From: Carya illinoinensis
Lineage: Eukaryota; Streptophyta; Magnoliopsida; Fagales; Juglandaceae
DNA: 64,000 nt
Direction: 5' to 3'
Assembly (NCBI RefSeq): GCF_018687715.1
Contig: NC_056754.1
Span: 17,779,501 to 17,843,500 of the forward strand
The notes below the pieces were generated by a model. It made no database searches, was not told where the DNA came from, and worked only from the letters and a program-made list of their open reading frames with translations. Below are positions 2,386-61,067 of this stretch, piece by piece (positions within the stretch are counted from its first letter, which is position 1; each line of letters starts with the position of its first letter). Made by a program: the position numbers and the translations under genes.

Positions 2386-3730
2386 GAGACTGTTGAACCC
2401 AAGGTTTCAAGTTTAATGTGATTATAAATCTACACATGGATTTTGATGATAACAAATGAATTCAAAAAATAAAGGAGTTTCAAACTCAAGTTGTCCACAC
2501 AATGGAGTCAAGCACATCAAAGAACCAAGCATGAGCAAGAAGGAAACAAGTTCACATTAAAGTCATAGAGTAATGTTTTAAATCTCTTAAAATTCAAAAT
2601 TAGGATTAATGCTCAAAATTAATATTTTATCATAAAGCATTAAAATACATTTTCCACATATGCATGAATATTTTTTGAAAATTAACTTTGAAAATATTAA
2701 AGATGATTGATTGTCATCTTTTACATGTGCATTCCTTGATTAAAGGGTTGAACTTTGAAAATATTAAAGATGATTGATTGTCATCTTTCACATGTGCATG
2801 TTTTATTTGAATATTTTCAAAAGTGATTGATACTTTTTTAGACTTATACAAAAGGTAGATGATTTTGTTTGAATTTTTTGAAAAGTAAAGTGTGCTCCTT
2901 TTGTCATATACAAAAAGTAAAAGATTAGGTTTGAATTTTTTGAAAAAGAAAGTGTGCTCCTTTTGTCATATGCAAAAAGTAAAAGATTAGATTTGAATTT
3001 TTTTGAAAAGAAAAGTGTGCTCCTTTTGTCATATGCCAAAAGTAAAAGATTAGGTTTGATTTTTTTGAAAAAGTGAATGATGTTGTCTTTGACATGTGAA
3101 TCTTTTTAAATTTGAATATGAAGTCTCATATGCCTATAAATAGATCATTTGAGAGCTTCACATTCACAACACCAAGAACATACAACATTCATTCAAAGCT
3201 TTCATCTCTCTTCTCTAAACATTGAGATTTAATCCTTGTTCATTTTGAGAGATATAGTTTGCGCTGTATTGTTCTTATTTTACTCATTGAGGAGTGTTTT
3301 CTGATAACCTACCCACTATCAACTCTTGTATAAAAAAAAAAGGGTGTGTATAACCCTTATGCGTGTAGAAAGTATTCTACACAGGAAATAGTTGAATCAC
3401 CACGTGTAAGGTAATTGCAAGTGTAGAGGGTGTTCTACACGGATCCTTTGTAGCGGCGTTGTTCAAATGTGTAATAGGTTTCTATCTCCACCTGAAGGAG
3501 ATTAAATAGTGAATTTGGGAATTCTCAAGGGGTAAAGGCGAGGACGTAGGTAGTGGGGCCGAACCTCGTTAACATACTGAGTTTGCTTCTCTCTTACTCT
3601 TACTCTTTATATTTATTGTTATTTCATATTTTGTTTATATTTTATATTATATATTTGATTTATAATTGTTATTTTTTTAATACAACTCAATTCACCCCCC
3701 TCTTGTATTAGTCGTCTGGGCAACAGAGAC
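2386..3730 (+). mobile_element. Solo LTR of a retrotransposon, 1,335 bp, with target-site duplication gagac
   Basis: The LTR runs 2391-3725, starting TGTTGAACCC and ending GGGCAACA, so it has the TG...CA ends and short TGTTG/CAACA inverted repeat of LTR retrotransposons. It is flanked on both sides by the identical 5 bp gagac (2386-2390 and 3726-3730). No internal coding region, primer-binding site or second LTR adjoins it, so it is a solo LTR left by recombination between the two LTRs of one element. It contains a promoter-like region (cctataaatag, 3134-3144) and an internal tandem repeat at 2865-3060. A second copy lies inverted at 44931-46258. The superfamily cannot be read from a solo LTR. 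The linked copy suggests Copia. Confidence 0.88.
2865..3065. repeat. Tandem repeat of about 63 bp inside the LTR
   Basis: Three to four diverged units, each with tttgaattttttgaaaa, then a(a)gtgtgctccttttgtcata, then caaaaagtaaaagatta. The same array, inverted, is found in the other LTR copy around 45595-45800, so it was present in the parental LTR. Confidence 0.7.
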
Positions 3731-12274: not shown

Positions 12275-13630
12275 TCAGCCATATAACAAATTAGATATCA
12301 TATCACTGGGCAAAAGTTTTACTGCCATCCGATCGGTTGTATAAGTAGAGAAAATCAGAATCAGAATTGCATATAATGTACGATTATCAACTATATACAT
12401 GAAGATAAGATAAAAGAAATCTGATTGAAATATATCATACCACATATATGAAGGGTATCCACTGATAGAGCCACCACCGCCCTGATTCCTACCGGCACTC
12501 GGCTGTCCCACCTGCATGTTTGGATACAAGTGCTGCAGACCCACACCTGACACGCCGTGGGCCCCGAAGAAAGACTGATTTCCCCCTAACTGGGTGGTCG
12601 TCACGCTCGGGTTCAACACCCCTGCAGGTGCCAAGAACCCGGCTTCTGGACTCGGAATGAACCCGCTGTACAATGGGTTCAGGTTCAGATGCTGCCCAAA
12701 CAGCGACGAATTCTGTGCCGCTGCCAAAACCGGTGCTCGCTGCGCTTGTAACGGTGGTTGTGCCGCCACATGCCCCTGCACCAGATTCTTGCCCTTCCCA
12801 TCGGTTGCCTTCTGGCAATGCAATCGGTGCCCTTGAAATGTTCTAAACGGCTCTTCCAGAACCTTCTTGGCACCGGTCTCGCTCTTATACACGAACAACG
12901 CAAAGCCTCTGGATCTTCCGGTGTTCTGATCGAACCCAAATGGACCCGCCTCGATCTCCCCGAATTTTGCGAAGAATTGTCTCAATAACTCGGCGTCCGT
13001 ATCGGCCGGCACGTTGTTCACGTAAATCCTTCGCGCCGCAACGTCCTGGGACTGCAATGGTGCCCCAGGGCCCACGGAAGCCAGCTGCCACGAGGCGAGT
13101 CTGTTGCCGATCTTCTTCGTAGGGTTCTTGAGAGCCTCTTGGGCGCTCTTCCGGGTCTTGAATAAGACGAAGGCATATCCCTTGGCTTTTCCACTGACCT
13201 TGTCCGTGACGAGGGTGCAGTCCTCTATCTCTCCAAAAGGCTCAAAGGCAGAGAGTAATGTCTGGCGAGTGGTGTCCCAGCCAAGGCCATGTACGAAGAT
13301 CTTGCGGTGAGAGACGTCGCGGTCGGCCACCTGGCGAACGAGGCGGGAGAGTGAGGGGAGCTGAAGGGCGGTGCTGGAGATGAGGTCGATAAGCTGGCCT
13401 TTGGAGAAGAGCTCCAGGAGGTTGGGGAGGGAGTCGGAGTCGGAGTCGGAATCGGAATCAGTGTTTAGGGATTGTTGTTGTGGTGGTGGTGGCCGGGGTT
13501 GGGGTTTCCGGGGCTTTTCGGTTTTGGGTTTTTTGTTGGAGGTGGAGGTGGTATCGACTTCTTGTTGTAGATCGTCTTTCTTGAATTTTTTTACAAGCCT
13601 TCGCTTTTTGGTTTTGGGTGTCTTCGCCAT
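12275..13630 (-). CDS. UBP1-associated protein 2C-like RNA-binding protein, two RRMs
   Basis: A single open frame of 451 codons from ATG at 13630. Residues 1-50 are Lys-rich then Pro/Gln-rich, followed by an (SD)n acidic run (58-67). A conserved helix (LLELFSKGQLIDLI) comes next. RRM1 (about 109-186) has RNP2 KIFVHGLG and RNP1 KGYAFVLF. RRM2 (about 200-277) has RNP2 RIYVNNV and RNP1 RGFALFVY. The tail is Gln/Ala/Gly-rich and ends GYPSYM. This is the layout of nuclear hnRNP-like UBA2 proteins, which bind U-rich 3' UTRs and take part in mRNA stabilisation and wounding, senescence or ABA responses. Family members normally end just after YPSYM. Here a donor-like atgtg/gtatga lies at that point (about 12441), so the remaining roughly 50 hydrophobic residues down to 12275 are probably read-through into an intron. 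The true C-terminus is therefore uncertain. Confidence 0.9.
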   Translation of the reverse strand: MAKTPKTKKRRLVKKFKKDDLQQEVDTTSTSNKKPKTEKPRKPQPRPPPPQQQSLNTDSDSDSDSDSLPNLLELFSKGQLIDLISSTALQLPSLSRLVRQVADRDVSHRKIFVHGLGWDTTRQTLLSAFEPFGEIEDCTLVTDKVSGKAKGYAFVLFKTRKSAQEALKNPTKKIGNRLASWQLASVGPGAPLQSQDVAARRIYVNNVPADTDAELLRQFFAKFGEIEAGPFGFDQNTGRSRGFALFVYKSETGAKKVLEEPFRTFQGHRLHCQKATDGKGKNLVQGHVAAQPPLQAQRAPVLAAAQNSSLFGQHLNLNPLYSGFIPSPEAGFLAPAGVLNPSVTTTQLGGNQSFFGAHGVSGVGLQHLYPNMQVGQPSAGRNQGGGGSISGYPSYMWYDIFQSDFFYLIFMYIVDNRTLYAILILIFSTYTTDRMAVKLLPSDMISNLLYG

Positions 13631-13699
13631 TGAAGAGCGAGATGGAGTCTTGGAGATAAGCCTCTCAGGACCGAACAGAAACCGAGAGGTCAGATGAGT

Positions 13700-15952
13700 A
13701 GAAGGTTAGGGTTTCAGTGGACCGAAATCGGCAAATCCAAGTACCAAGTACAAGCTCATTATGTATTGCACCAGAAAAATTCTCTTATTAGCCAGACGTT
13801 TTTAGGTTTTGCTTAGCGACAAGATTTTTTAATGAAAATTTTAAATTTTAAGGTTAAATAATATTATATTTTAATATTATTATTATTTTAAAATTAAAAA
13901 AATTAAATTATTTATTATATTTTATATAAAAATTAAAATAAAAATTATAATAATAAAATAAAAATTTTATATTTAAGATTAAAAATCTTAATGACTAAAC
14001 AATAACTTCCGCATAAACTATTCGAGTTTATATTTCCCATCGAGCGTGCAAAGTTGTCACGTCGTAATATAGTAAATCCTATCGTAAGGGCTCTCTTATA
14101 ACTTCTAATTTTTTTTTAAAGGATTAAGTCTTATTTTGTTATAAAGCAATGTTACATACAGTCGTGAAATTGTAAACGTCACGTAATCGTTTTGAAAAAA
14201 AATGGAGTTCACGATTAAAAAGTTAATTTTTTTTTCATGTGGATCTCATATTAATTCATTTTTTTCAAAATGACTGCACGTCGCTTGCATAACCACGACT
14301 GTAAATATCATTTCTCTTTGTTATATAGATGATATGGAATTATGTCACATCGTGCAGGTTAAAGTGTAAGTGTTATGCGCCACCCTATGGAACTTCTCAC
14401 TACGCGCTACAAGTATCAGAGCTATCGGTTTCTTCAGATCTGACCATCAGCTACACTTCTAAGACAGCACATGTCCCTCGCGCTTCACCACAATCTATTT
14501 AGTTTTATATTTTTTTTGCAAGATTAAAAATACAGATTTACAATTTTTCAAATTGTAATTCATTATTTTCAAATCTATTTTTTTATTTTTTTATTTGCTT
14601 TTATTTAGATTAAAAAATAAATAAAAAATAGTCTCTTAAATATTTTGTAATGAAAGTTATCTCCTCCTCTAAAGAGTTAGGTTTGAAAGCTCTCTCCTCT
14701 TCTAGAGGGTGGGAGATGAAATCTCTGTTTTAAGTAGAGTGTTATCTCTCAAACAGTTATTTGTAGAAAATTATAAAAATTAAGACCATACTAATCATAA
14801 AATAAATTTGTGTATTAGAGGAACTCAAATTGTGAATAGTTGGCTTGTAATTATATCAAATCACAGATCTAATTTCACTTTCATAAATGAATGAAATTTA
14901 TTTCTCAAAAATAGAAATGATGATATGGGATAAAATAAAATATTTATGAATAATTTTGAAATAATTTGTAAATACTAATAAAAGAGCTTTACTATTCAGC
15001 ATCATCACACATCACATTTTTTTTAATTTTTAATTTTATTATTCCTAAACTAATTGAATTTTTTTACTCATCGTCCATATACCACATATTTGATATGAGA
15101 AAAAAATTAAAAAAAAAGGGTGGTGTGTTTTTTTTTTTTTAAGTGTGGTGTATTGTGTCAGGTGTGTGCCGATGATGAATAAAATTTTTTATAAGTAAAA
15201 TAATTTGAGTTAAAGATTTTATAGGATTTTGAAAAATTAGAAAGTTGAATAAAAAAAATTATAAAGTTAAAAGAGAGTTATAATATAATTTTTAATATTC
15301 TTTTTGTTTTAAAATTTAAAAAAAGTTGAATTATTTTTTGTGTTTTATTTGGAAATTTTCAAAACTTGTAATGGTTAGAGGAAAAAATTGAAAAACTGAA
15401 ATTGAAAAATATTTATATTTAAATGGTGTTTGAGATGGAATAAAATGAGATGAAATTGTTTCAAATATTTGTAAAACCAAACCAGACCTTATTCTCTTTC
15501 TCAAATCATTACGTAGAATATATTATTCACATAATTGTATTATTCACATAATTGTATATTATTTACATAATTATATTTTAAAATAAAAAATATTTTTATA
15601 AAATACCTTATAAAAATAACAACACTTTATAAAAGTACCCTCATTTTTATACATATATTGTGAAATATATCGTAAAATATGTTACGTAATTATCATTATT
15701 CATCTAATTTTATATCAAGGAATTATACATATTTCACAACAATTTGCACAACACATATTATAAAATAAGAGTATTTTGTAAAGAGATGTTAATTTTATAA
15801 GGTAATTTATAATAATATCTCTCGTTTTAAATATTATTGTGTAAAATGTTGTAAAATATGATTTATGTTTATCATTTTCCATATATTTATCCGAGGAGCT
15901 GCGTTAGTTTTATTTTAACCGACAAAACTTGGGATGAAGAATCATTATCAAT
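13700..15952. other. Intergenic, AT-rich repeats including a family A MITE
   Basis: The first 100 bp is the promoter side of the RRM gene, with an agggttt-containing leader. 14151-14316 is a family A MITE copy (gcaatgttacatacagtcgtg ... ataaccacgactgtaaatat). 15180-15490 resembles the dispersed repeat with gagttaaagattttataggattttgaaaa...ggtgtttgagatgg...aaccaaaccagacctt, a MITE type seen again near 23585, 40320 and 44755. No open frame is worth naming. Confidence 0.5.
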
Positions 15953-16460: not shown

Positions 16461-16588
16461 GGCGTCTGGAGTGCACAAATACTACACAATTTTTTTGAAA
16501 AAATAAATAAATACAAGACCCACATAAAAAATAATATTTTTTAAATAGTAAATCTCACTTTTTTTTGAAACAATTGTGTGACGCTCCT
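16461..16588. repeat. Family A MITE into which the hAT-like element inserted
   Basis: The stretch gcacaaatactacacaatttttttg, aataaataaatacaagacccacataaaaa, tagtaaatctcac and gaaacaattgtgtgacgct follows the interior of the family A MITE up to the insertion point. The remaining right end expected past the hAT-like element (after 22651) is not clearly recognisable. Confidence 0.4.
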
Positions 16589-17387
16589 AGGACTGTTCAT
16601 CCGGGTTCCAACTCGGGAACCCGGATATACCCAAACCGGAACCCAGATTTGAAATCTGGGTCGAAACCCGGACCGGGTTATCCTGGGTCACATTCGGGCT
16701 GGAACCCGGATGAACCCGGGTTTTGCAAAACCCGGATTCCAGGTTCCGAAATGAACTTTTTTTTTTTTTCTCTGACGCTTTAAAAGCATAATTTCTTTTT
16801 AAATAAAAAACCTATATTATATTAAAGATTTTTTAAGAAAAATCAATGTTGAAAAGCATAATTCTCTTTATATAAAAGCCTATATTTATTATAGAAAATT
16901 TTTAAAAAATGTTGAAAATCATACTTTTTAAAAAAAAAAAAACTATATTTTGTGAAAAATTTTCTAAGAGATAATGTTAAAAAGCATAACATTGTCTAGA
17001 ATAATAAAATATATAAAAATGAAAAACTAAAATGCATACAATCCACTAGATATTAGATTACATTACAAAATATAAAATTATAAGATATGAGTTACATATC
17101 AATAACAGTCTTACATGTGATTTAATCACACCAAATAAAACTTCAAGTATATTCGCTATAGCCACTCAAATGGAAGACAACCTCTACATTGAATTCCTAG
17201 TATATTCTCTGCAGCCACCCAAACTGAAAGAGTAAGAATGTATTTCAACAGATAAAAACACAAACCATGAAAAGGAACACTAAATTCTCCATTTACATAA
17301 CTGGGTGAATAAAAAAATGAAAGATGATAAAACTAAAGATATGACAACTCCAACATAATAGGTTATCAAGCCAATCAATTGGATTGC

Positions 17388-17516
17388 TCCAGGGTGTGAT
17401 TTTAGGTACTGCTCCAGTTGCTTTTTGTTGTTGATCTCCTCTCCAGTAGGAGCAACAAACATGATCTCATTCTTCCTAGGTGTACCTCCTTTCTTGGGTA
17501 AGAACTGATGGGGAAT
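17388..17516 (-). pseudogene. Captured MBD-domain fragment of an MBD10/11-like methyl-CpG-binding gene
   Basis: On the minus strand the frame reads [20 protein letters not shown], then [20 protein letters not shown]. This is the first two-thirds of the MBD domain of plant MBD10/MBD11-type proteins, which act in the nucleus in DNA-methylation-linked gene silencing. Homology stops abruptly after HPG, where family members continue with a short loop and then SEFDW and RRSAR. The frame runs on into unrelated residues to a stop at 17280. Upstream it changes to unrelated sequence before about 17516. The fragment has no stop or frameshift inside it, so it looks young or is under little decay. It lies inside the hAT-like element and cannot encode a full MBD protein. 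Confidence 0.82.
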
Positions 17517-17635
17517 AGAAAGCAGAGGCACACATCAAGTGGTACACAACAAGATTTATGAGCTAATAACAAAATCAACTGAACTTGTCCTTGAAGACTT
17601 CCCATCATAAATTCAGTACTGTTATGATAGAATGC

Positions 17636-20600
17636 ACAAGTGTAACAGCCCGCTAGAAATTCAATTGTGAAATTTCTATTAACTTTAGGAATCTTGTGAA
17701 AAACCCATAAGTTTTCACGAATCCATTAATCGTATAGGTTTTTTTTGTCTAACTACATAGTTAGTGTTATTATTTACTATGGTATTAGAAGTGTATTTTT
17801 GATTATTGGAGATAGTTAGAAGTGTCAAAATGTATTATGGTTTGTGCCATTAAACTCGGAGGGTTATTTAAAGTCTTATGGCGCAATAACATTTTTTTCA
17901 TATTTTCGGACAAAATGTCTGTTCAAAATTGTAAATATTATTGGATAAAAAGAAATATCTTGAGGTAATTTTCGTGAATATTATTGGGTAAAAATATTTT
18001 GAGTTGATTTTTATAGATATTATTAGATAAAAATATCTTAAGTTGATTTTTGTAGATATTATTGGATAGAATATTATGAGATAATCTTTTATAGATATTT
18101 TAGGTAGGAGAAAACCACACTTAACTCTCAACTCCAGCCTTATCACCTCCCTTATCTCGTCCATAAATGTGTCCAGCCATCACCCATGAACTTATCTTCA
18201 ATTACTCCTTCTAATAAAAGATTATCAAACACTCTCTCTCGGACAGATTTTAGGAGATCTTTTGCATGCCCATTTCGAAGCTGTTGTAAGTGTTTTATCG
18301 TAAAGTCTCCTTCATATAAGTTGTTCCTTTTTGAGTCTAGTTTACATGGATATCTTATTTGCCCCATTTGAAGATCATTTGGTCAGTCAAATATTGTGTA
18401 AACTATAGAAAGGTCATTCTGGGAGATAAACTGGAGAATATGTTATAGTTTGGAGTTTTTGACCAAGCTAATGGATAGATATTGGTCCGAAATTTTTATA
18501 GAGTATTGTTAACATGTATATGTGACTATTGGTTGAGGATTTTTGCATGATTAAAGGTTTTGATGAAAGATGTTCTTAGATTTAGAAACTTAGAAACTGG
18601 AAGAGGAAAAACAGTTTCTGTTTTGAGAAAGTTTAACTCTTTGGTGGTCTAAACCTATTCTAATGACTTTGATAATTTTATTGGAGGATCCTAAACATCT
18701 TATATACATGTTATATTATTATTTTGAAGATATTTGATGTTAGTTTCAAAGATATGAAATTTTATGCAAAGAGATATTCAAATAAGTCAAAGTGTGGATA
18801 TTCTTGGCTAAATTTATGTTTTGGTTAATTTCTAACCATATGATCTTGAATTAGAAGCTTATATATGTTTTAGGACATCTTTTTAAACCATATGATGGTT
18901 TGGTTTGAAGATCATATATTTATAAGTCATAGATCAAGAGATTTATCAAAACTAGTTGAGGGAAAAGTTTATGTTTTTGGACTAAGTGTAAAACCAAAAA
19001 CTCCAAATGTTATTTTGTGATTTTGGTGACTTTAGTTTGATGATTTAAAGCATGGTTGATGTTAGGATGATATTATGAATATGTTAGAAGTAAGATTTGA
19101 TTTTTGAAATTCTTGGAGATGTTTTGATTTAAGGTCAAAACTTGTGATTCAAGTGCTTGGATCTTTTTACAAAAAAGTTTGGTGTTGATTATTAGTTTTT
19201 TCTAAATGGATGTTTTAAGTATGGTTTTGAACTTAGGATTGGAAGATGTTTGTTGCAAAATTTTGGTTTAAGCATGAGTTTTGAAGTTGGAAGGAATTGC
19301 AACAAAAATAAAGGGAAATGGCCTATGCATGTTTCGACCATAGTGTGTTCTTCATAGTTGTGTTTTGTTTTAAATTTTTCTGAGTTGATATTTAAGTTTA
19401 GGACAAGATTTACATGAGGAATGTAAATTTTAGAAACTTTTGGAGTTAGTATGCAAAATCCTTAAGTTATGGGTAAAACGGTCATTTTCCCACATGTAGA
19501 GAGTAAAATGAAAATTTTACTCTTTAAGTTAGTATTTTCCATATTTCAAATTATTAGTGATTTAGTTCTAACTTTTAGAATCACTAATTACAGTTCCTCG
19601 TGATCGCACTTGAAGTTTTATAAGAAACGCGGAGATCGAGGTAAGTTAGCTTTTAACTTACTAGCAGTCTACTGTGTATGTGTGCTAAGTAAAAGAATTA
19701 CAGTGTATGTATGTATGTTATCATATATGTCATGCCATGCCAAGTTATCATATAATTGTCTATTATACAGAATTTATTCTGTCATAAATTTTTATCTGTT
19801 ACATAATATATTCTGTCATGTATTACTATACATTACAAATATGTCATGCTAAATATGTTGTTTGTTATATGTTATGTCATGTTACGAAATGTTACTATCT
19901 CAAGTTGGTTATGTATTTCAAATTATGTTCAAGTCACGTTATGTTACGTCAGGGCTTCAGTCCTTTCATATTCCAGTCACGTTTCATCTTGAGTATATTC
20001 AGTTTATGTAGAATACATGGGGCTACAACAACTGTGGAGTATGTATTTAACTGCATAGTGATGTGTAGAATACATGGGGCCACAACAACTGTGGAGTATG
20101 TATTTACACATAGAATACATGGGGCCACAACAACTGTGGAGTATGTATTTTCAATGTTAAATCAAGCTTGTGTAGAATACATGGGGCCACAACAACTATG
20201 GAGTATGTATTTACACGTAGAATACATGGGGCCACAACAACTGTGGAGTATGTATTTTTCATGTTAATTCAAGTTTCAGAGCAAGTTCATGCTAAGTCAA
20301 GTTTCAGATCAAGTTCATGTCAAGTCAAGTTCAGTTCATGATTCAATTTAAGCTATGTCAATTATGCTATGTTGTACACTAAGTTATGCTTTAATTACTT
20401 ATGAATTTGATTATGCATTTATGCTTTTACTGTCATACATGTATCATTAGTCTGTATGGAAGTTTTTTGTTAACTTGCTGAGATTTGTAATCAAATCTCA
20501 CTGTGGTAGTCCCAACTACCATTCCCCCCGAATGGTAGATCTTGTTACAGGACCTGAAGGAGGATCAGGAGCTGACCAACTAGACACAGTCGACTGAACG

Positions 20601-20949
20601 ACGGTGCGTCGTTAATGTTAACATAGTAGTTAAATTACTACTTGTACGATAGAGTTGCATCTCCAGTACTTTTGGATCATAACTATTTTGGAATAGTGCT
20701 GAGATCTTAGTTATTTAATGGATCTTTATGTATGAAGTATGTTTTAAGTATTGGGATATTTTTAGTTTGGTGCATAGTATTGCTAAAGAAAAAAAAATTA
20801 TCCGCTGCGAATATTGCATAATGTTAGATGCATGTTAGGATTATTGCATCTTATATGTCATGAACGGGGGCAGGTAACCTTGTGTTGCATGTCTCGACGC
20901 TTCAAATGTCCGTCCAATCCCAAACGGAATTTGGGGGCGTCACAACAAG
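17636..20949 (+). mobile_element. Solo LTR, 3.3 kb, nested in the hAT-like element (target-site duplication acaag)
   Basis: The LTR spans 17641-20944. It starts TGTAACAGCCCGCTAG and ends GGGGGCGTCACA, so it has the TG...CA ends usual in plant LTR retrotransposons. The same 5 bp acaag precedes it (17636-17640) and follows it (20945-20949). It is very long for an LTR, and no gag-pol, primer-binding site or polypurine tract adjoins, so it is a solo LTR. Such long TGTAACA...GTCACA LTRs are common in plant Ty3/Gypsy families, which is my tentative assignment. It contains an array of hairpin repeats near 20.0-20.3 kb. The open frames inside (for example 19610-20267) are not protein-like. Confidence 0.85.
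20008..20257. repeat. Five tandem hairpin-forming repeats inside the LTR
   Basis: Five units, at about 20008, 20065, 20109, 20172 and 20217, each about 42 bp and separated by 2-20 bp. Every unit has arms aatacat/atgtatt (7 bp) and ccaca/tgtgg (5 bp) around the loop acaac, so it can fold into a hairpin. Unit 1 has ctaca in place of ccaca, and unit 4 has tatgg in place of tgtgg. The spacers differ, but the repeat units are nearly identical. Confidence 0.85.
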
Positions 20950-21139
20950 GCCAACTCAGTTTTTATTGAAGCATAAAATAAAACAATATAAAGGCAAATA
21001 TCAATTTAAGAGCGAGAAAAGGGGGGGAAAAACAAAAGGTATATTAAATGTGTGTTCTCACTTCTCAGCTATCCTCTTTTAGTAGAATACAGGATATCAA
21101 ATTAATAATCTAACCTAAGCATCCTCTGATAATATAACC

Positions 21140-21820
21140 TATGCTGTGAGTCAACAGCTTTTTAAGACCTATCAAGATCAACCCGATGGTGTCCTTACTT
21201 CGAAGAAAGAAAAAATAATTTCAAATGTAGCTCTTTGCAAGTTTGGATGTCACCACAAACTTCCGGTAAATGTGTTGTCATTAATTCTTTAAATTCTTGG
21301 TGTTGCCATTCCCATGAATTTGTTATATTCTTCTCTGTTTCTTTTTTTCCTATGATCTGTAATAGATTTATTGTTGCTATTATATATATATATATAGACA
21401 CACACAAACAATCAATACACATAATTAAAAAAACATATATCTGCCAAACCTCCTCTCCCTTTGTGACATGATAATCTATATTGCTTTTCTATGACTATAC
21501 TGATAACTTTTGTTTTTTGTTTTTTGTTTTTAATCGTATATGTGATTAGCTTTACATTCTTCAAATTGTAGAGATTTATTCGAGATAAGTCCTTTGATCC
21601 GAATAAGTGGATCATTACCGGTGATAGATCGGACAGTGCATTCTTTGAGGAGTTACTTTTTAACAGGAGAAAAATCTATATTAGGGAAACTAGGAAAATG
21701 GAAAGTGAAACTGTTGCTGATGTTGTGGAGGCACTAATTGGTGCATTTCTAAGCATTGGTGGTGAAACATCAGCATTATTATTTATGGAATGGTTGGGTA
21801 TAAAGGTGGATTTTCACATA
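21140..21820 (+). pseudogene. Captured Dicer-like 3 fragment (part of RNase IIIa domain), intron kept
   Basis: Two exon pieces join in phase 0: 21140-21265 and 21572-21820, around a 306-bp intron with donor ccg/gtaaat and acceptor ttgtag. The first reads YAVSQQLFKTYQD, then KKEKIISNVALCKFG and CHHKLP. The second reads FIRDKSFDPNKW, then KMESETVADVVEALIGAFLS and ALLFMEWLGIKVDF. This is the middle and end of the first RNase III domain of plant DCL3, which cuts double-stranded RNA into 24-nt siRNAs for RNA-directed DNA methylation. The second acidic motif (DVVEA) is kept. The first one (family consensus ESLETLGDS) lies upstream of the break and is missing. The frame is open throughout and ends at a stop just after the homology. 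The retained intron shows capture at the DNA level. Confidence 0.85.
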
Positions 21821-22333
21821 ACACCACAGTAATCCTATTTTTATCTGGGTTTGACTTTTTTCTACCTAAATATTGCTACCCAATTGACAAGCTCGCCCAA
21901 AAATCTCATTCGACAAAACATTACAGATCTTTCCATTACAGAGTGTACAAACATACTCATAAAAACATTATAGATCTAACCCATAAAAAAATTCCCCAAA
22001 CATTCTCATAAAAAAAAAAAAAAAAAAAAAAACCTAAAATCAACAAAGAGAGAGAAAAAAAGAAAGAGAACAAGATCTTTTGGTGGCTGTTTATTTCGTG
22101 TTTGGCCGATGCACACCCATTTGCTTTCTCTCCATCAATTTCTTTTTGTTTAAGTTATCAAATCCTTTTCCTTTGCTCTGTCTATAATTTCCAATCATCA
22201 AACCAAATCTCTACTCAAGAAATCAGTTCCTAGGTTCATATTATGATCTACTAAAATAATATGAAAACTAAAAGACAGCAAAAGATAGAATGAAAACCGA
22301 GACCCAGAGAGAGAGAGAAGGAGAAGAACTCAC

Positions 22334-22460
22334 TTTGATCGGCGATTTTGCGCACAAGAATGAAGACGACTGAGCGGAACTACCGGCAAGTGGAGGCTAG
22401 GGTTTCCGTGTGGGTGAGACTCTTGAGAGCACGAGAGAGAAGGTCCGGACTCCGAATGTG
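22334..22460 (-). promoter_or_regulatory. Candidate captured 5'-leader exon with telo-box, minus strand
   Basis: Reading minus, the block has normal genic base composition and contains ggaaaccctagcc, a telo-box (AAACCCTA) typical of plant promoters and leaders. It is followed by gcaaaatcgccgatcaaa and a good donor (caaa/gtgagttc) at 22333. A CT-rich stretch follows on the intron side. This looks like a first non-coding exon with its intron start. The source gene is unknown. It could be the leader of the MBD gene, whose coding fragment lies downstream on the same strand. Confidence 0.4.
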
Positions 22461-22659
22461 GGTTTGACGTTCCATATGGTTTTTAACTTTCTCTTACTTG
22501 TTTTTAAACAACCCGGGTACTCTGGGGTTTAGGCATGCGGGTTTCGGTCTGGGTCTAACTTGGGCCGAAACCCATATCCGAGAACCCGGTTATCCGGGTT
22601 CCGGTCCTGGCCGAATAAAATCCAGCCCGGATGAATAGTCATAACGCTCCTGAGCATGG

Positions 22660-32600: not shown

Positions 32601-33200
32601 GTCCTTGTGCCTAAACACTGACGTATGTAAAAACATTAACAAGGTTGAGTAGGTATTACTTGCAAATAATGTCGCCGATTAATGATTTGTATAAGTGTTA
32701 GGTATATAAGTCTTTCTTTATTAAAAATAAAATTAGACCCTGTCATAGAAAAATATAAAAAAAATAACTTTTTTTTTTTTAATGATTTGTATAAGTATTA
32801 GGTATAAGTCTTTTTTGGTAGAGTGTATTATTTTACAAAGAAATTGCACCAGACTTAATTTACATACCTAAAACTTGTGTCTAACATAAAAGCTTGAACT
32901 GCATACATTGTGGGAAGCACCAAAAAAAAAAAAAAAGAATAGGGGATGATTGCATGAGAAGAACATTCAAAGGAAATGTTTCCTCATAATCTATTTAATT
33001 ATATAAAAGTGAATTTAAAACTTGCTTACTTGTCACTTAGAAATAAGCATTTCAACTATTACAACTGTATATTGTTTTTGCAAAAAATTGTGTTGACTTC
33101 CTTGCAACGTTTCAGCAAAAACCTGAAGCAATACAACGACATTTCAACCAAAACTCAAAGCATCGCAACGCTTTATTCATTGCAACGTTTCATGCTTCAC
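29650..33200. other. Intergenic, AT-rich, with one AACCGAACC-type repeat
   Basis: 29,630-30,000 is probably the 3' UTR and downstream region of the RING-CH gene. 30,930-31,600 has gaccgaattgattgtaattcag, aaatcgaaccgaaatg, gtatcggttttt and attggaccgaatc, a repeat type seen again inverted or diverged at 33,795-34,335. 31,080-31,400 is (AT)-rich with microsatellite runs. 32,140-32,420 is purine-rich low complexity. No coding frame with recognisable homology. Confidence 0.45.
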
Positions 33201-33208
33201 TGATACAA

Positions 33209-33545
33209 AATGGACCCAATTTCCGGCTTTTCAAACAGCCCACAACAAAACTATCCGGATGCCATGCCGACAAAATTCTCTTGATCATTACTTCTTTCTT
33301 CCCGTTCAAAGAAGCCGCCATAACTTGCGTTCTATCCAAGCGTTGGCATCATATATGGCATGAAACAAAGAAAGTAGACTTTGATGAGAAATTTTTTGTT
33401 GGAGTTGGTGAATCCCATAAAAGTCAACAAAAACTCAAGTCATATTTTCATAGATTTTGCAAGACATTGGACGGAGAACTATTAATAAAATAATGTTGAT
33501 AAGTTTCGACTCTCATATTGAGTCTTTATTAGTGATGGATTTCGA
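33209..33545 (+). pseudogene. Broken F-box gene, N-terminal part only
   Basis: From ATG 33209 the frame reads MDPISGFSNSPQQNYPDAMP, then hits a stop. A one-base shift at the aaaa before ttctc (about 33270) restores ILLIITSFFPFKEAA, then ITCVLSKRWHHIWHETKKVD and FDEKFFVG, an F-box with the VLSKRW motif common in plant F-box/LRR/FBD proteins. A second shift after GELLIK (about 33490) is needed to continue into VDKFRLS. After that all similarity is lost and no LRR or FBD part is present. F-box proteins are the substrate receptors of SCF ubiquitin ligases. This copy cannot encode one. It is most likely a truncated duplicate. Confidence 0.7.
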
Positions 33546-39711: not shown

Positions 39712-40197
39712 TCAGAAAATTCTAGGAAAACCAGTGCCATGTAATGCAGACAACATTAAAATAACGTCCTCATCACTCTCATCAGAATCCACACGATCTC
39801 GCATCCTGTGATAACTTGCCACAACATCATCCGGCAAAACTTTGTTCCTGCAAAGTGGGCAAGTGGCGGAACAGTGTTGCAGCCACCTATCCAGGCAATC
39901 CTTATGGAAAATGTGCTTACATTTCAGCTTCCTAATTTCCTCGTCTTCCTCGAATTCTGACAAACACACAGCACATTCAGTCTGCTGATCCATCCTCAAT
40001 CTCTTGGTGTAACGAATGGTGGGATTGGTTTCTTCGATGAGGTTGAGGTATTGGTTGGAGGTGATTAGGCTTTTATCGGACTTGGGGCTTAATCCCATGA
40101 TTGACCGGATAAGAATTATTACTTCAAGAACCAGGAGAGTGAAGAAGACTTTGGTTATGGTTTTGAGGTGGTAGAGGAAATCAGAGAGAGCTGACAT
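39712..40197 (-). CDS. RING-H2 E3 ubiquitin ligase with N-terminal membrane anchor (RHA1/XERICO-like)
   Basis: An intron-less frame of 161 residues starting at ATG 40197. Residues 16-34 ([19 protein letters not shown]) form one membrane segment. The RING-H2 domain spans 75-116 with C75, C78, C93, H95, H98, C101, C113 and C116, and has the usual W at position 105 (DRWLQHC). The tail is acidic (DSDESDEDV). Length, single exon and one anchor match the short RHA1/RHA2/XERICO-type RING-H2 proteins, which ubiquitinate targets at the ER or endomembranes, several in ABA and drought signalling. I cannot choose between these subfamilies. The stretch 40198-40330 upstream is the probable promoter, with tatataacaa near 40258. 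Confidence 0.92.
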
Positions 40198-40319
40198 GGC
40201 TGCTTCTGCACAAAGTGAAATGGGGTGCTCAGAGAATATACAGTGACACTAGTTCATATATATAACAACTATGTCAATGTGAGGCTAGCTGGGTTGTCTA
40301 TGCCACTTGGTCCTGTTTG

Positions 40320-43884: not shown

Positions 43885-44930
43885 TATACCACGTCATGTA
43901 CAAAATACCACACATTTCATTTATCAATTCCACTCACAAGTGGAAGTCTCGGATGACATGACATGACGCTCTTAATTATCCGCTGTCAATGCAAACTTTG
44001 ATCTTTAGGCTCGGTACAGATGTAATATCAAAAGGCAACGAGATTTTGGTTAAGATACGAAAAGATTTAACTAATTTACATAATTTAATACGACACGTTA
44101 AATTTATCTTTTAATAAAAATAATTTTATAATTTAATATATCATATTAAGTCACGTCAATTTATTTTTATCAAATTTTACTTAGACTAAAATATTTATCT
44201 TTGGTAAAAAGAAAATACGTAATACGGTATATTCGGATGTCAAACTCATCTTAATTTATCTCAAATTAAATATTAATTTGACTCACTATTTATTCAATTT
44301 AATTTTTATAAAAAGTTAAATATATGTAAAAATATTTTATATATTCATACAATTATATCAACTTATATCATACAAACAAATACATATCAACTTATTCACA
44401 TATAAACTCAGATTACCTCGACCCAAATGTAGTATAAATGAAAAGGCAGAGAGAAAGATCTAGGAGCATATATAATAATGGCTGTCAAGACTTCACAGCT
44501 TGCTGTCACTTTGAGACAAATATCATCCAGAGGTCCCATTTCATATGGATAACAATAATTCTGCGCAGACCAAACGTTTATATGTTACAAATTCATAGCA
44601 AATTTGAAAGTGCACAAAGCTAGCCTACGGCCTACCCACGTGATATATCTCTATCGGGTACTTGAGCCCACCCATTACACCAATATCATAGTGCGTGTGC
44701 GTGCGTTTGGCCGGCCCTCACGGGTAAGTTCTAGCTGTTGAGTTTATCTTATGACTCATTTGGATAGTGAAATAAGAAGATATTAATTGAGATAATTTAT
44801 GAATAATATTAAAATTATTGAGTTGAGAAGAAATGAGATAGTTTTTAAAAATTTTATATTTGGATTAAGAAGTGAGATAAGATGGTTTTAACTTAATTAT
44901 AATTTTGTTTCATAAATTAATGTTGCCCAG
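40320..44930. other. Repeat-rich intergenic region
   Basis: 40,315-40,700 is a TTTGGATgTTGagatgag-type MITE with related pieces at 44,230-44,410 and 44,755-44,900. 41,157-41,312 is a family A MITE. 41,320-42,170 has ggggccaagttttc and a ggggagccatggcccctctt end, like a degenerate LTR or hAT edge. 43,300-43,460 is a family B MITE. Microsatellites are (TTA)n at 43,691-43,712 and (ATA)n at 43,853-43,883. No coding frame is supported. Confidence 0.4.
43300..43460. repeat. MITE, family B
   Basis: An inverted structure: tacaattatttttacata, attttattaatatgattgat at left and the near-inverse atcacatcattaaaatatat, acgtaaaagtaattacacata at right. Similar units lie at 52350, 54205, 62600 and 62790. Confidence 0.5.
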
Positions 44931-46258
44931 ATGACTAACACAAGAGGGGAGGTGAATTGAATTGTATTAAAAAAATAACAATTATAAATCAAATATATAA
45001 TATAAAATATAAACAAAATATGAAATAACAATAAATATAAAGAGTAAGGGTAAGAGAGAAGCAAACTCAGTATGTTAACGAGGTTCGGCCCCACTGCCTA
45101 CGTCCTCGCCTCAAGCTACCCCTTGAGGATTCCCAAATTCACTATTCAACCTCCTTCAGGTGGAGATAGAAACCTATTACAACTTTGAACAAATCCGCTA
45201 CAAAGGATCCCTGTAGAACACCCTCTACACTTGCAATCACCTTACACGTGGTGATTCAACTATTCCTCGTGTAGAATACTTTCTACACGCACAAGGGTTA
45301 TACACACCCTTTTTCTGATACAAAAGCTGATAGTGGGTAGGTTATCAGAAAACACTCCTTAATGAGTGAAATAAGAACAATACAGCACAAACTATATCTC
45401 TCAAAATGAATAAGGATTAATGCTCAATGCTTAGAGAAGAGAGAATGAAAGTTTTGAATGAATGTTGTATGCTCTTGATGTTGTAAATGTGAAGCTCTCA
45501 AATGATCTATTTATAGGCATATGAGACTTCATATTCAAATTTAAAAAGATTCACATGTCAAAGACAACATCATTCACTTTTTCAAAAAATTCAAATAAAA
45601 AGTTCTTCTTTTTCAATTATCAAAGACAACATCATTCACTTTTTCAAAAAAATCAAACCTAATCTTTTACTTTTGGCATATGACAAAATGAGCACACTTT
45701 CCTTTTCAAAAAATTCAAACCTAATCTTTTACTTTTTGTATATGACAAAATGAGCACACTTTACTTTTCAAAATTTTCAAACAAAATCATCTACCTTTTG
45801 TATAAGTCTAAAAAAGCATCAATCACTTTTGAAAATATTCAAATAAAACATGCACATGTGAAAGATGACAATCAATCATCTTTAATATTTTCAAAGTTCA
45901 ACCCTTTAATCAAGGCATGCACATGCAAAAGATGACAATCAATCATCTTTCAAAATTTTCAAATTTAATTTTCAAAAATATTCATGCACATGTGGAAAAT
46001 GTATTTTAAGGCTTTATGATAAAATATTAATTTTGAGCATTAATCCTAATTTCGAATTTTAAGAGATTTACAACATTAGTCTATGACTTTAATGTGAACT
46101 TGTTTCCTTCTTGCTCATGCTTGGTTCTTTGATGTGCTTGATTCCATTGTGTGAACAACTTGAGCTTGAAACTCCTTTATTCTTTGAATTCATTTATTAT
46201 TATTAAAATCTATGTGTAGATTTATAATCACATGAAACTTAAAACTTTGGGTTCAACA
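44931..46258 (-). mobile_element. LTR, minus strand, same family as the solo LTR at 2391; probable 3' LTR
   Basis: Read minus, it starts TGTTGAACCC(A) at 46258 and ends CTGGGCAACA at 44931. It matches the first copy over its whole length, including the cctcgttaacatactgag and tgtgtagaaagtattctac blocks and the internal 63-bp tandem units (45595-45800). Immediately upstream on the minus strand is gcaaaagggagagat, a polypurine tract as expected just before a 3' LTR. No target-site duplication pairs with its outer end (attaa). Confidence 0.82.
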
Positions 46259-47456
46259 ATCTCTCCCTTTTGCACTGTCACATGCACCACCCATTGCATA
46301 TACAGTGGAATACAGGTGCACATAACACCATGAGCCTTCAACCGTGAGCCTGGTCCTTTAGACCGTCAACACCTTCTGTCGCATTGCGAATTGTCACTAA
46401 CGCAGGATACTCACTCCTTAGCAACTTGGAATGCTTCTAGGGCTTCCTTAAGAACTTTAGAATATATTATCCCAAAATACTCATTCTATAAATTTATAAA
46501 TACAGCATAAAACTGTTCAATAGAGAGATTACCTTGTCTATAGTTAGAAATCTCTAACTCAACTTGAAATTTGCTTGCAGTATTGTCTTGATAATATAGA
46601 CACCTACAATAGTCTCACATCTCCTTAGGAGTAGTAAATGATTGAACATTGTTGACCACATATGGTTCAACGTGTTGAACTTAGTAGCCAAGAAACAATC
46701 TTGGCATCCTTGTTGTTCCAATAACTAAATTCTTTGAGAACAGTAAGAACCACATAAGACCCATCCAAGTGATCCCATAATTCCTTTCCTTTCATAATCA
46801 TTTGAAACTAAAATTCCCAACTTCCATAATTCTTTCCATTAAATCAAATGATTGAATTTTCATTTGACAGAATGACCACAAAATCAAAATGAGTAAAAAA
46901 AAAAAAAGAAGTTGTTGTAGATAGGCAACACAAACACTGACCTGAAAATGCTAAAATACCCAAAAATAGCACTGCCAGAAAATACTACTAGAAAATGCAC
47001 CAAAAACTTGAGAAACTCTATCTACAAAAGCCTACACAGAGAGCCCGAGAAGAGTGGACTGAAAGAGGCCAGAAAACACCTCCCTAATGAAACAGAAATT
47101 GACAAAATTTCTAGTAGCCACTGACCACTGATTGAAAGCTCCAAAAGAGGCCAAAAAACACTGCTCTAAAAATAAAGTGTCGATAAGAACCAAACAACCC
47201 TGCTGAAATACAGAGGGTGCCTAGAATCACCAAACAGAAAACCACTTCTTTGTAAATAGAAAGTGCCAAATATGGTGGAAAAAATAGCCCAAAAAAAAAA
47301 AAAAAACCCCCAGAGAGTAGTGAAGGCAGACAATGTCAACAAAACCACAAGAACCCAGAAAGCACTAGTCTGACAACAGACAATGCCGACATAAGCCAAT
47401 GAACTATTGGGAACAAAAAATTGCCCAAAAACAAAATTCTAGGGCTCTGGTACTAG
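46259..47456 (-). pseudogene. Internal remnant of a Copia-type retrotransposon (gag part, primer-binding-site-like end)
   Basis: On the minus strand the stretch around 46510-46760 keeps gag-like wording (for example a frame with the UBN2-like core ...YIIKTILQANFKL...), broken by many stops. At about 47444-47456 the minus strand reads tagtaccagagccctag, close to the initiator-Met primer-binding site TGGTATCAGAGC followed by cctag. Upstream of that (plus-strand 47457 on) aaacttaac may be the end of a 5' LTR of a different family. The polymerase region is missing. I see this as one or two collapsed Copia elements. The exact joins are uncertain. Confidence 0.45.
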
Positions 47457-58745: not shown

Positions 58746-59761
58746 ACCAAGTGCATCTTCAGCCCAATATATTTACTCCCAACACAAATAATAATTAGTG
58801 TGCAATAACTTATCAATATTACGTTATAAAAGTGTGAATGTAACGTAAAATCTTAAAACTAACAATATTTGTACAATGATATATTGTACAAGTAAATAGT
58901 TGCGTATTCCGAGTACTACCTTAAGGTAAAGTAGTCATACGGTGAGCATGGGACAGACAGAAAGAGAGAAGGGGTTGTGTTGGGCAACCTCCACGTGAAT
59001 TGGCCCATCCATTAGTTTCCAATTAAATCAATACACATTAATACTGCACAGACAGAAAAGAAAAATATTCCTTTCTCTTTGTTATCATCTAACATCCCTA
59101 TTTTGATTGCCCCAGTACTTGTACATATATAAATGAGCATACCTTAAGTACGGACAACCCAAAGTGATAGCCGTCGATGAGGTCACTATAGGGTGGCTCT
59201 TCTGAGGTTACCTCAAGAGCTGCCCCAGACAGGTGGGTTTAAAGGTACAAAATGTAAAATATATATATATATATATATGTCTTTTTAAAAGTATTTGATA
59301 AGAAGTCTCACGTATTTTTATTTTATTATTTTTTTTAAAAAAAATTAGATATATTTTTATGAATAATATTATATATCATACTATTATTTTATTTATATCT
59401 TATTATATATGATATGATGTATTTGTTATTATTTAATAATAAAAATAGAATATAATAAATAATTATTTAATAATAATAAATATATTATTTCTTTTATAAT
59501 AGAATGTAAATAAAATGATAATAAGCTGTATTAAATTTTCATATCTCCTTACGGTTGGGGGGTATACACCAGCGGCTAACTTTATTTATTTATTTAATAC
59601 TTCCTACAACTTGGCTTGTGAAAGAGAACGATCGTAAATACAACAGGACAAGCTGTCTCCTTCAGTCCTACTGATTTTGACAGAAATTGCTCCTTGCTAT
59701 CAACGAATACCCGGGGATTCTGAATTCTGGATATTTCAAGAACCAAGTTTTCCACTGCCAG
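58746..59761. other. Intergenic and promoter region of the reductase gene
   Basis: AT-rich with (TA)n at 59260-59278. A short plastid-like patch is not evident. The leader of the next gene probably starts near 59,600 (tacttcctacaacttggc). No frame is worth naming. Confidence 0.4.
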
Positions 59762-61067
59762 ATGGATCCCTACGGCAAAGAAGTGGTACTAATCACGGGG
59801 TGTACGACTGGAGGCATAGGCCATGCCCTGGCCCGGGCGTTCGCCGCCAATGACTGCCTGGTCGTGGCCACCAGCAGGTCCCAGGGTTCGATGTCCGATC
59901 TCCAGAACGACCCCAGATTCTTCCTGCAAGAATTGGATGTTCTGTCAGAAGAGAGCGTACATCACGTGCTTGCCAATGTTCTGGAGAAGTATGGTCGGAT
60001 AGATGTGCTGGTTAATAATGCTGGGGTGCAGTGTGTAGCCCCTCTTGCTGAGATCCCTCTCTCTGCTCTCCAAGACACTTTCAATACAAACGTCTATGGT
60101 AATAATAGTCTTCCGCGTTATGTCTCTTCTTCTCTTTTTCCTCTGAGATATGCTTAATCTGTGTTTCTCGGTTGGGTGTTTTTTTTTTTTTTTTTTTTTT
60201 TTTAGCGATTCCCAACATAGTACATGAGGATCTATGAGTTTGCACTGCTGAGTTTTGATTTCCTGCTGATGGTGCAAAATCAGACAACTTATGAATGGCA
60301 TCGTTATTCTTGTGGATATCAATGATTTTCTGTGTGCGTGGGTGTCTGCGTTAATAGTGGAAAATTCAAGATTTCAGCTTAAATTGCAACCTTCTATCAG
60401 TTGGGGATGTAATTTGGAACTGTGTTATGATGGATCTTTCACTGTTTACATCCTGGAAAGCTAATTCCGCGGATTGATTTTTCAGAAACTGTATCACTTA
60501 TATTTATGCTGCGCTGGCAGACCGATGCTCTTCTAGTAACGATTCTTTATTCTCCAAATGAAGAACTTCATTCTTCTACTTGCCAGCTTCTGAAACGAGG
60601 CAGAACATCCATGCCTCCTTCAATTCAATACACTATTCGACAGTTCAATTCAACACACACCCACAAACAAATACTTGAATTGTAGCTTTTTCCCAATAAT
60701 GTCCTAGGACAGGAAAACTTGGCCCCAAAAGCATCCCCCGTGACTGAATAACTTTATATTACCATCCAGAAAGCTTGGAATTTATCTAATACTACAAAAA
60801 AGTTGAACAAAAGATGAAGCATCACATTAACATCCAGCAAACTGGTTGACCACATCCTCTTGATCTTTCTAAACCTAACTGCATAGTTGACCTAGTGAGC
60901 ACATTGATGCAAAGGAGAAATTGGATGATTGGGATTTGTGAAATGTTTCAAATGTTATAAGTTTGGCTATGGATATGGAGCTTAATTCCAGGTTTTATAC
61001 ATTGTAACACCTGGTGCTGCATCTGATTAATAAAAACCTTTTGCGATTACAAGCAGAGGCAACCACT

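Follow-up and report, generated by a model that had tools for sequence, protein, structure and literature searches.

A hAT-like transposon carrying captured MBD10/11-type and Dicer gene fragments in Carya illinoinensis

Main finding

The window, a 64,000-nucleotide stretch of Carya illinoinensis contig C3 (G000:C3:17779501-17843500), contains a hAT-like transposon at 16588-22643 whose ends are matching inverted repeats. We consider it highly probable that this is a Pack-TYPE hAT element that acquired its cargo stepwise, with an MBD fragment, a third fragment and a DCL2-type Dicer fragment captured in turn, and that the cargo is likely inert and the pairing of two silencing-gene fragments likely a coincidence. 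A sequence-only reading of this DNA had proposed a single transposon bearing fragments of two host genes in opposite orientation. This was confirmed: the MBD fragment lies on the minus strand and the Dicer fragment on the plus strand, within ends that recur in the genome. These host gene fragments between inverted ends place the element among the Pack-TYPE transposons, and it is probably non-autonomous. The anatomy of the element, the target duplications, which copies carry which piece, a remnant of the third piece and the junctions were all observed directly.

Structure of the element

The features of the element are as follows (sister copies are named by their contigs).

16580-16587, no strand: left target-site duplication, 7 bp (ACGCTCC) in common at 16581-16587
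16588-16777, plus strand: left terminal region, GC-rich, with inverted repeat TAGGACTGTTCATCCGGGTT, common to the family copies compared
16778-17383, plus strand: left body; parts of the left body and MBD piece match at least 39 other places at 86-95% identity
17384-17640, minus strand: captured MBD10/11-type fragment, with an exon-matching open stretch (17388-17507) and intron DNA
17636-17640, no strand: left target duplication of the solo LTR, ACAAG
17641-20944, plus strand: solo LTR of 3.3 kb, TGTAAC...GTCACA, with a 5-bp target duplication
20945-20949, no strand: right target duplication of the solo LTR, ACAAG
20950-21085, minus strand: remainder of the segment common to the six MBD-bearing copies
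21116-21136, plus strand: third-piece remnant, shared with the C5 and C15 copies and with C10:5538136-5538633 (L048)
21140-21826, plus strand: captured Dicer genomic fragment, with an exon end (21140-21265), an intron and an exon (21572-21826, part of RNase IIIa)
21822-21826, no strand: 5-bp microhomology CACCA at the right Dicer-piece junction, which the Dicer piece has in common with the right arm
21822-22520, plus strand: right body; the four longest matches (L009, L041, L042, L043) are 82-92% identical
22521-22643, plus strand: right terminal region, inverted repeat, reverse complement TATGACTATTCATCCGGGCT
22644-22651, no strand: right target-site duplication, ACGCTCCT

The sequence ACGCTCCT occurs at 16581-16588 and again at 22644-22651, and had been taken as an exact 8-bp duplication. 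Both sites exist, but a strict match of eight out of eight does not hold, because the T at 16588 is a base of the element; it was assigned there since most other copies match starting from that T. The target duplication in the window retains 7 of its 8 bases (ACGCTCC), the eighth having been changed or lost, and this departure from perfection by one base counts against the favored explanation. The terminal inverted repeats of the family, compared by eye among fetched copies and with the window ends, were approximately TAGGGCTGTTCATCCGGGTT on the left and TAGGACTGTTCATACGGGCC on the right.

The element of about 6 kb described in the sequence-only reading is real, but 3.3 kb inside it was overlooked as a later insertion of a solo LTR. 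This LTR has TG...CA ends, a 5-bp duplication and an empty site in sister copies. The C5 copy runs uninterrupted at the insertion site (GCACAAGGCC, with a single ACAAG), and the LTR is missing from all five other MBD-bearing copies (C5, C15, C9, C3 and C1). It breaks up the MBD part of the cargo. Pieces of the same LTR repeat, with the same ends, were also found elsewhere in the genome (L024).

Copies of the family in the genome

The genome searched comprised 674,387,116 bases in 17 contigs. A 200-base query from the left end matched the window and at least 39 other places at 83-89% identity (40 of 694 candidates scored), each match spanning at least 159 of the query bases; nine more weak rows were opposite-strand matches at places of this kind. 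Parts of the left body likewise matched at least 39 further places (40 of 496 candidates scored). Of 20 left-end copies retrieved, 15 had a right end and an 8-bp target duplication containing no more than one mismatch when register shifts of up to 3 bases were allowed. No such duplication was found in the other five (L011, L016, L020, L023 and L028); L023 and L016 do have right ends, and their duplications contain 2 and 3 mismatches, respectively. The recurrence of the ends and the duplication, on which the transposon proposal had depended, was thus established. The short terminal inverted repeats common to the copies and the 8-bp duplication are both features of hAT elements. Among the 24 stop-to-stop frames overlapping the element, no transposase domain was found in the seven that were scanned against Pfam.

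The ends remained constant over about 150-190 bp across the family, while the interiors varied and were unlike one another although the ends agreed. In a Pfam scan of ten hand-picked frames from other copies, only the MBD match in the C9 copy (4.2e-6) lay above the cut-off. Cation efflux (1.7e-5) and MFS (5.7e-5) fell below it, HATPase was weak (0.04), one match was at chance level (0.045), and five frames gave none. Weak matches among the cargo of the family copies thus include cation-efflux, transporter or kinase domains. Because the interiors differ, some with these weak domain matches, this appears to be a family of Pack-TYPE hATs whose cargo can be exchanged. That the cargo domains of the other copies, MBD excepted, stayed below the cut-off is a point against this explanation.

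Ends and interiors also diverged to different degrees. At least one end was more diverged than the interior in all four copy pairs compared (L009/L041, L010/L012, L013/L014 and L013/L018), and the C5 and C15 copies differed by 7.1 and 4.7% at their ends and by 0.8% in the interior. Terminal exchange between copies is a possible source of the extra end divergence. CpG decay as the sole cause was not supported, since mismatches in CpG context were a minority in the four pairs, with the exception of the left ends of two of them.

The MBD10/11-type fragment

The MBD piece matched the Pfam MBD domain at 4.9e-8 and, among PDB sequences, MBD11 (6acv) at 1.8e-14, the next best being 0.12. The nearest match outside the family, among the matches listed (40 of 41 candidates scored), was an MBD10/11-type gene on contig C2, whose exon was 91.6% identical. 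The two differed at 10 of 117 bases and in 3 residues (dN 0.033, dS 0.376), and the frame of the C2 gene continues beyond the domain within the 1-kb stretch read. The assignment of this piece to MBD10/11 in the sequence-only reading is borne out by these matches. Since the match to the C2 gene extends into the intron, the captured material was genomic DNA.

The MBD segment is carried by six copies, namely those in the window, on C5, C15 and C9, at 47.98 Mb on C3 and at 52.24 Mb on C1. Compared with the window, it differed at 4 of 392 sites in C5 and also in C15, 9 of 392 in C9, 10 of 392 in C3 and 11 of 385 in C1. Three other MBD-like fragments of equal score (79%; 40 of 41 candidates scored) lie at C7:42890016 (contained in L046), C3:21392254 and C1:47882842, and are perhaps carried by another repeat.

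The Dicer fragment and its class

The Dicer fragment includes parts of two exons and has GT and AG splice sites. It scored 14.9 bits against Pfam Ribonuclease_3, below the 27-bit cut-off, and was 88-94% identical to Dicer genes in the same genome. Used as a query (12 of 12 candidates scored), it matched eight places on C8, one on C7, 52 bases on C5 and the window, with a best genome identity of 91% in the C8 cluster; none of the matches outside the window lay at a known family copy.

The fragment had been read as part of DCL3. Its Dicer origin, RNase IIIa position and plus strand were upheld, but its class was not. The PDB comparison gave nearly tied scores for DCL3 (29.0 bits), DCL1 (27.9) and DCL4 (27.8), and a C8 Dicer gene of 503 residues scored 245.6 with DCL1, 242.7 with DCL3 and 233.9 with DCL4. 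When the solved DCL3 piece was compared with the genome, identity was 55-67% for exons on C14, against 33-51% for the C8 cluster; the single best row was C1:18348159, 47% over one long frame. For the DCL4 piece, identities were 43-71% on C15 (at least 52% in seven of the eight rows), 43% on C1 and 26-51% in the C8 cluster. By these sequence matches, DCL3 of this genome is on C14 and DCL4 on C15, and the C1 locus is perhaps DCL1. The fragment itself matched the C8/C7 Dicer group, so DCL3 identity was rejected, DCL3 not being its closest class. As the fragment is not from DCL3, the proposed tie of the cargo to RNA-directed DNA methylation through 24-nt RNAs no longer holds.

The fragment and the C8/C7 genes are apparently DCL2-type by exclusion from the references compared (DCL1, DCL3 and DCL4), where DCL3 and DCL4 were excluded through the genome comparison and DCL1 only through the near-equal PDB scores. 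In relation to Dicer-like 2 genes, the piece corresponds to the RNase IIIa exons of the C8/C7 group; it differs in being only a fragment, with its DCL2 identity given by exclusion. The DCL2-type genes or fragments on C8 form a tandem cluster of eight places by our grouping, over about 450 kb (C8:17886140-18339283), and one further place lies at C7:18437673-18440029 (fetched loci of the group: L034, L035, L037, L038 and L044).

Donors and divergence

The MBD exon was 91.6% identical to the C2 gene, in line with its named parent; the Dicer piece was at best 91% identical to C8 genes and did not trace to DCL3. The absence of a near-identical donor for either piece in the assembly counts against the favored explanation. 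The second Dicer exon differed by at least 6.3% from each of four C8 genes examined closely (best 93.7%), and the remaining four C8 places were 84-91% identical. Because the MBD segments of the window and C5 differ by 1.0%, as against at least 6.3% for this exon, either the Dicer donor is outside the assembly or conversion has homogenized the MBD segments. Pecan is reported to show presence-absence variation and introgression (PMC8257795), which would allow a donor to be missing from the assembly. In eight donor-side loci (22,922 bases, partly overlapping), no family end that would point to local hopping was found nearby.

Junctions and order of captures

The C5 and C15 copies match the window element in the MBD part and the right arm, without the Dicer piece. 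At the Dicer site they hold about 410 bp of other sequence, which largely matches C10:5538136-5538633 at 95-98% and which appears, from a translation judged by eye only, to be retroelement RNase-H-like. A scenario in which the Dicer piece simply entered an unoccupied site was therefore rejected. The window retains about 20 bases of this C10-type piece to the left of the Dicer piece. The start of the right arm is present in the C2 and C16 copies and missing from C5, so C5 has its own change there. The C9, C3 and C1 copies contain the MBD segment with about 225 bp of other sequence at the Dicer site. A comparison of copies with and without the cargo, as the sequence-only reading had suggested, gave the MBD piece in six copies, the Dicer piece in the window copy only, and unrelated interiors in the others. 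The contents of the sister copies and the remnant in the window indicate that MBD came first, the C10-type piece next and Dicer last.

We propose that a family with constant ends and variable interiors would first have acquired the genomic MBD10/11 fragment now present in six copies. Capture of the third fragment, found on C10 too, would have followed; last, in the window copy alone, a DCL2-type genomic fragment would have replaced most of it. Each capture might be attributed to gap repair during which the template switched to ectopic DNA, as suggested by the single-copy state, the internal breakpoints and the microhomology, in analogy to animal Pack-TIRs. Mobility would have relied on a putative hAT transposase provided in trans.

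Alternative explanations

The MBD piece is in six copies but the Dicer piece in one, so the two were acquired separately. This, together with the unrelated interiors of other copies, favors chance as the simplest account of their co-occurrence. If about 1 in 100 host genes is silencing-related, a further capture by an MBD-bearing copy would bring in such a gene about once in 100 times by a rough estimate, which is unremarkable over hundreds of elements. The two silencing-gene pieces in one element call for no special explanation at present, and the cargo is most likely inert. A more active role was considered, in which small or antisense RNA from the element dampens the host DCL2-type (and MBD) genes and aids escape from silencing. 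Sequence identity would permit small-RNA cross-talk between the element and the C8 Dicer genes: exact 22-mers in common numbered 44 of 102 for the first exon (C8_18312) and 68 of 234 for the second (C8_18244), rising to 102 of 102 and 186 of 234 at up to two mismatches. The opposite orientation of the two fragments also fits this role. For the MBD piece, 75 of 129 22-mers matched the C2 gene at up to two mismatches, but just 6 of 129 were shared exactly with this intact gene. The restriction of the Dicer piece to the window copy (12 of 12 candidates scored) and the unrelated interiors of other family copies further argue against such a role, which we regard as very improbable. The specific version, in which RNA from the DCL2 fragment lowers the host DCL2 cluster and the donor was a DCL2 copy absent from the assembled haplotype, seems equally far-fetched. 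If true, it would mean a transposon-borne silencing suppressor built from the host's own gene, and the Dicer piece, if expressed, would offer a direct test of captured silencing-gene fragments feeding back on silencing.

Retention of the Dicer exons or the MBD exon as coding sequence for a chimeric protein is rated slightly lower still. The Dicer exon stretches are open, with their splice sites, and a 120-base MBD stretch is identical in the window, C5 and C15; the second Dicer exon gave dN 0.047 and dS 0.147 relative to C8_18244, to which constraint in the element could contribute, although constraint in the donor explains the values equally well. Yet the two fragments are on opposite strands, a stop codon follows shortly after the junction of the second Dicer exon, and 8 of the 84 residues of this exon are changed compared with C8_18244. 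The MBD stretch has three residue changes in the C9 copy, its intron is conserved between copies as much as its exon, and the solo LTR interrupts it. The lack of near-identical donors would also suit an old segmental duplication in which the Dicer and MBD pieces came to lie between similar repeats by chance, with no transposon capture. This is the least credible account: it is contradicted by the same ends with 8-bp duplications at other sites in 15 of 20 copies, and by the MBD piece accompanying the left end in the C5, C9 and C3 copies.

Comparison with known Pack-TYPE elements

Stepwise capture by a Pack-TYPE hAT element thus remains our preferred explanation, and several known groups invite comparison. 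MULEs have longer inverted repeats than the window element and target duplications of 9-11 bp. Pack-hAT elements have been annotated in maize and rice, and according to PMC8903248, capture from several loci is common among maize Pack-TYPE elements. The window element resembles the maize and rice Pack-hATs (PMC8903248) in its inverted ends, 8-bp target duplication and captured coding DNA; it differs in that the order of its three-piece capture can be read from sister copies. According to PMC4858842, 5-10% of MULE-derived putative genes contain sequence from two or more parental genes, so that Pack-MULEs are alike in multi-parent capture. They belong to a different superfamily. PMC8277862 describes single-copy Pack-TIRs of animals that are made by gap filling involving microhomology, and the window element is similar in having a single-copy insert at internal breakpoints with microhomology. 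The donors of animal Pack-TIRs are mostly on the same chromosome (PMC8277862), whereas the likely donor family of the window element is on other contigs, which counts against our explanation. With three ordered captures and junction microhomology, the element is a detailed example of cargo being exchanged step by step within a Pack-hAT family.

Other features of the window

A Pfam scan of the longer frames in the window gave four domain matches outside the element, all in host frames: an RRM protein (12278-13705), an F-box-like frame just below the Pfam cut-off (33047-33490), a RING finger (39715-40248) and a short-chain dehydrogenase (59681-60154). The window also contains an inverted pair of 1.35-kb repeats, 92.7% identical, at 2386-3725 and 44921-46263.
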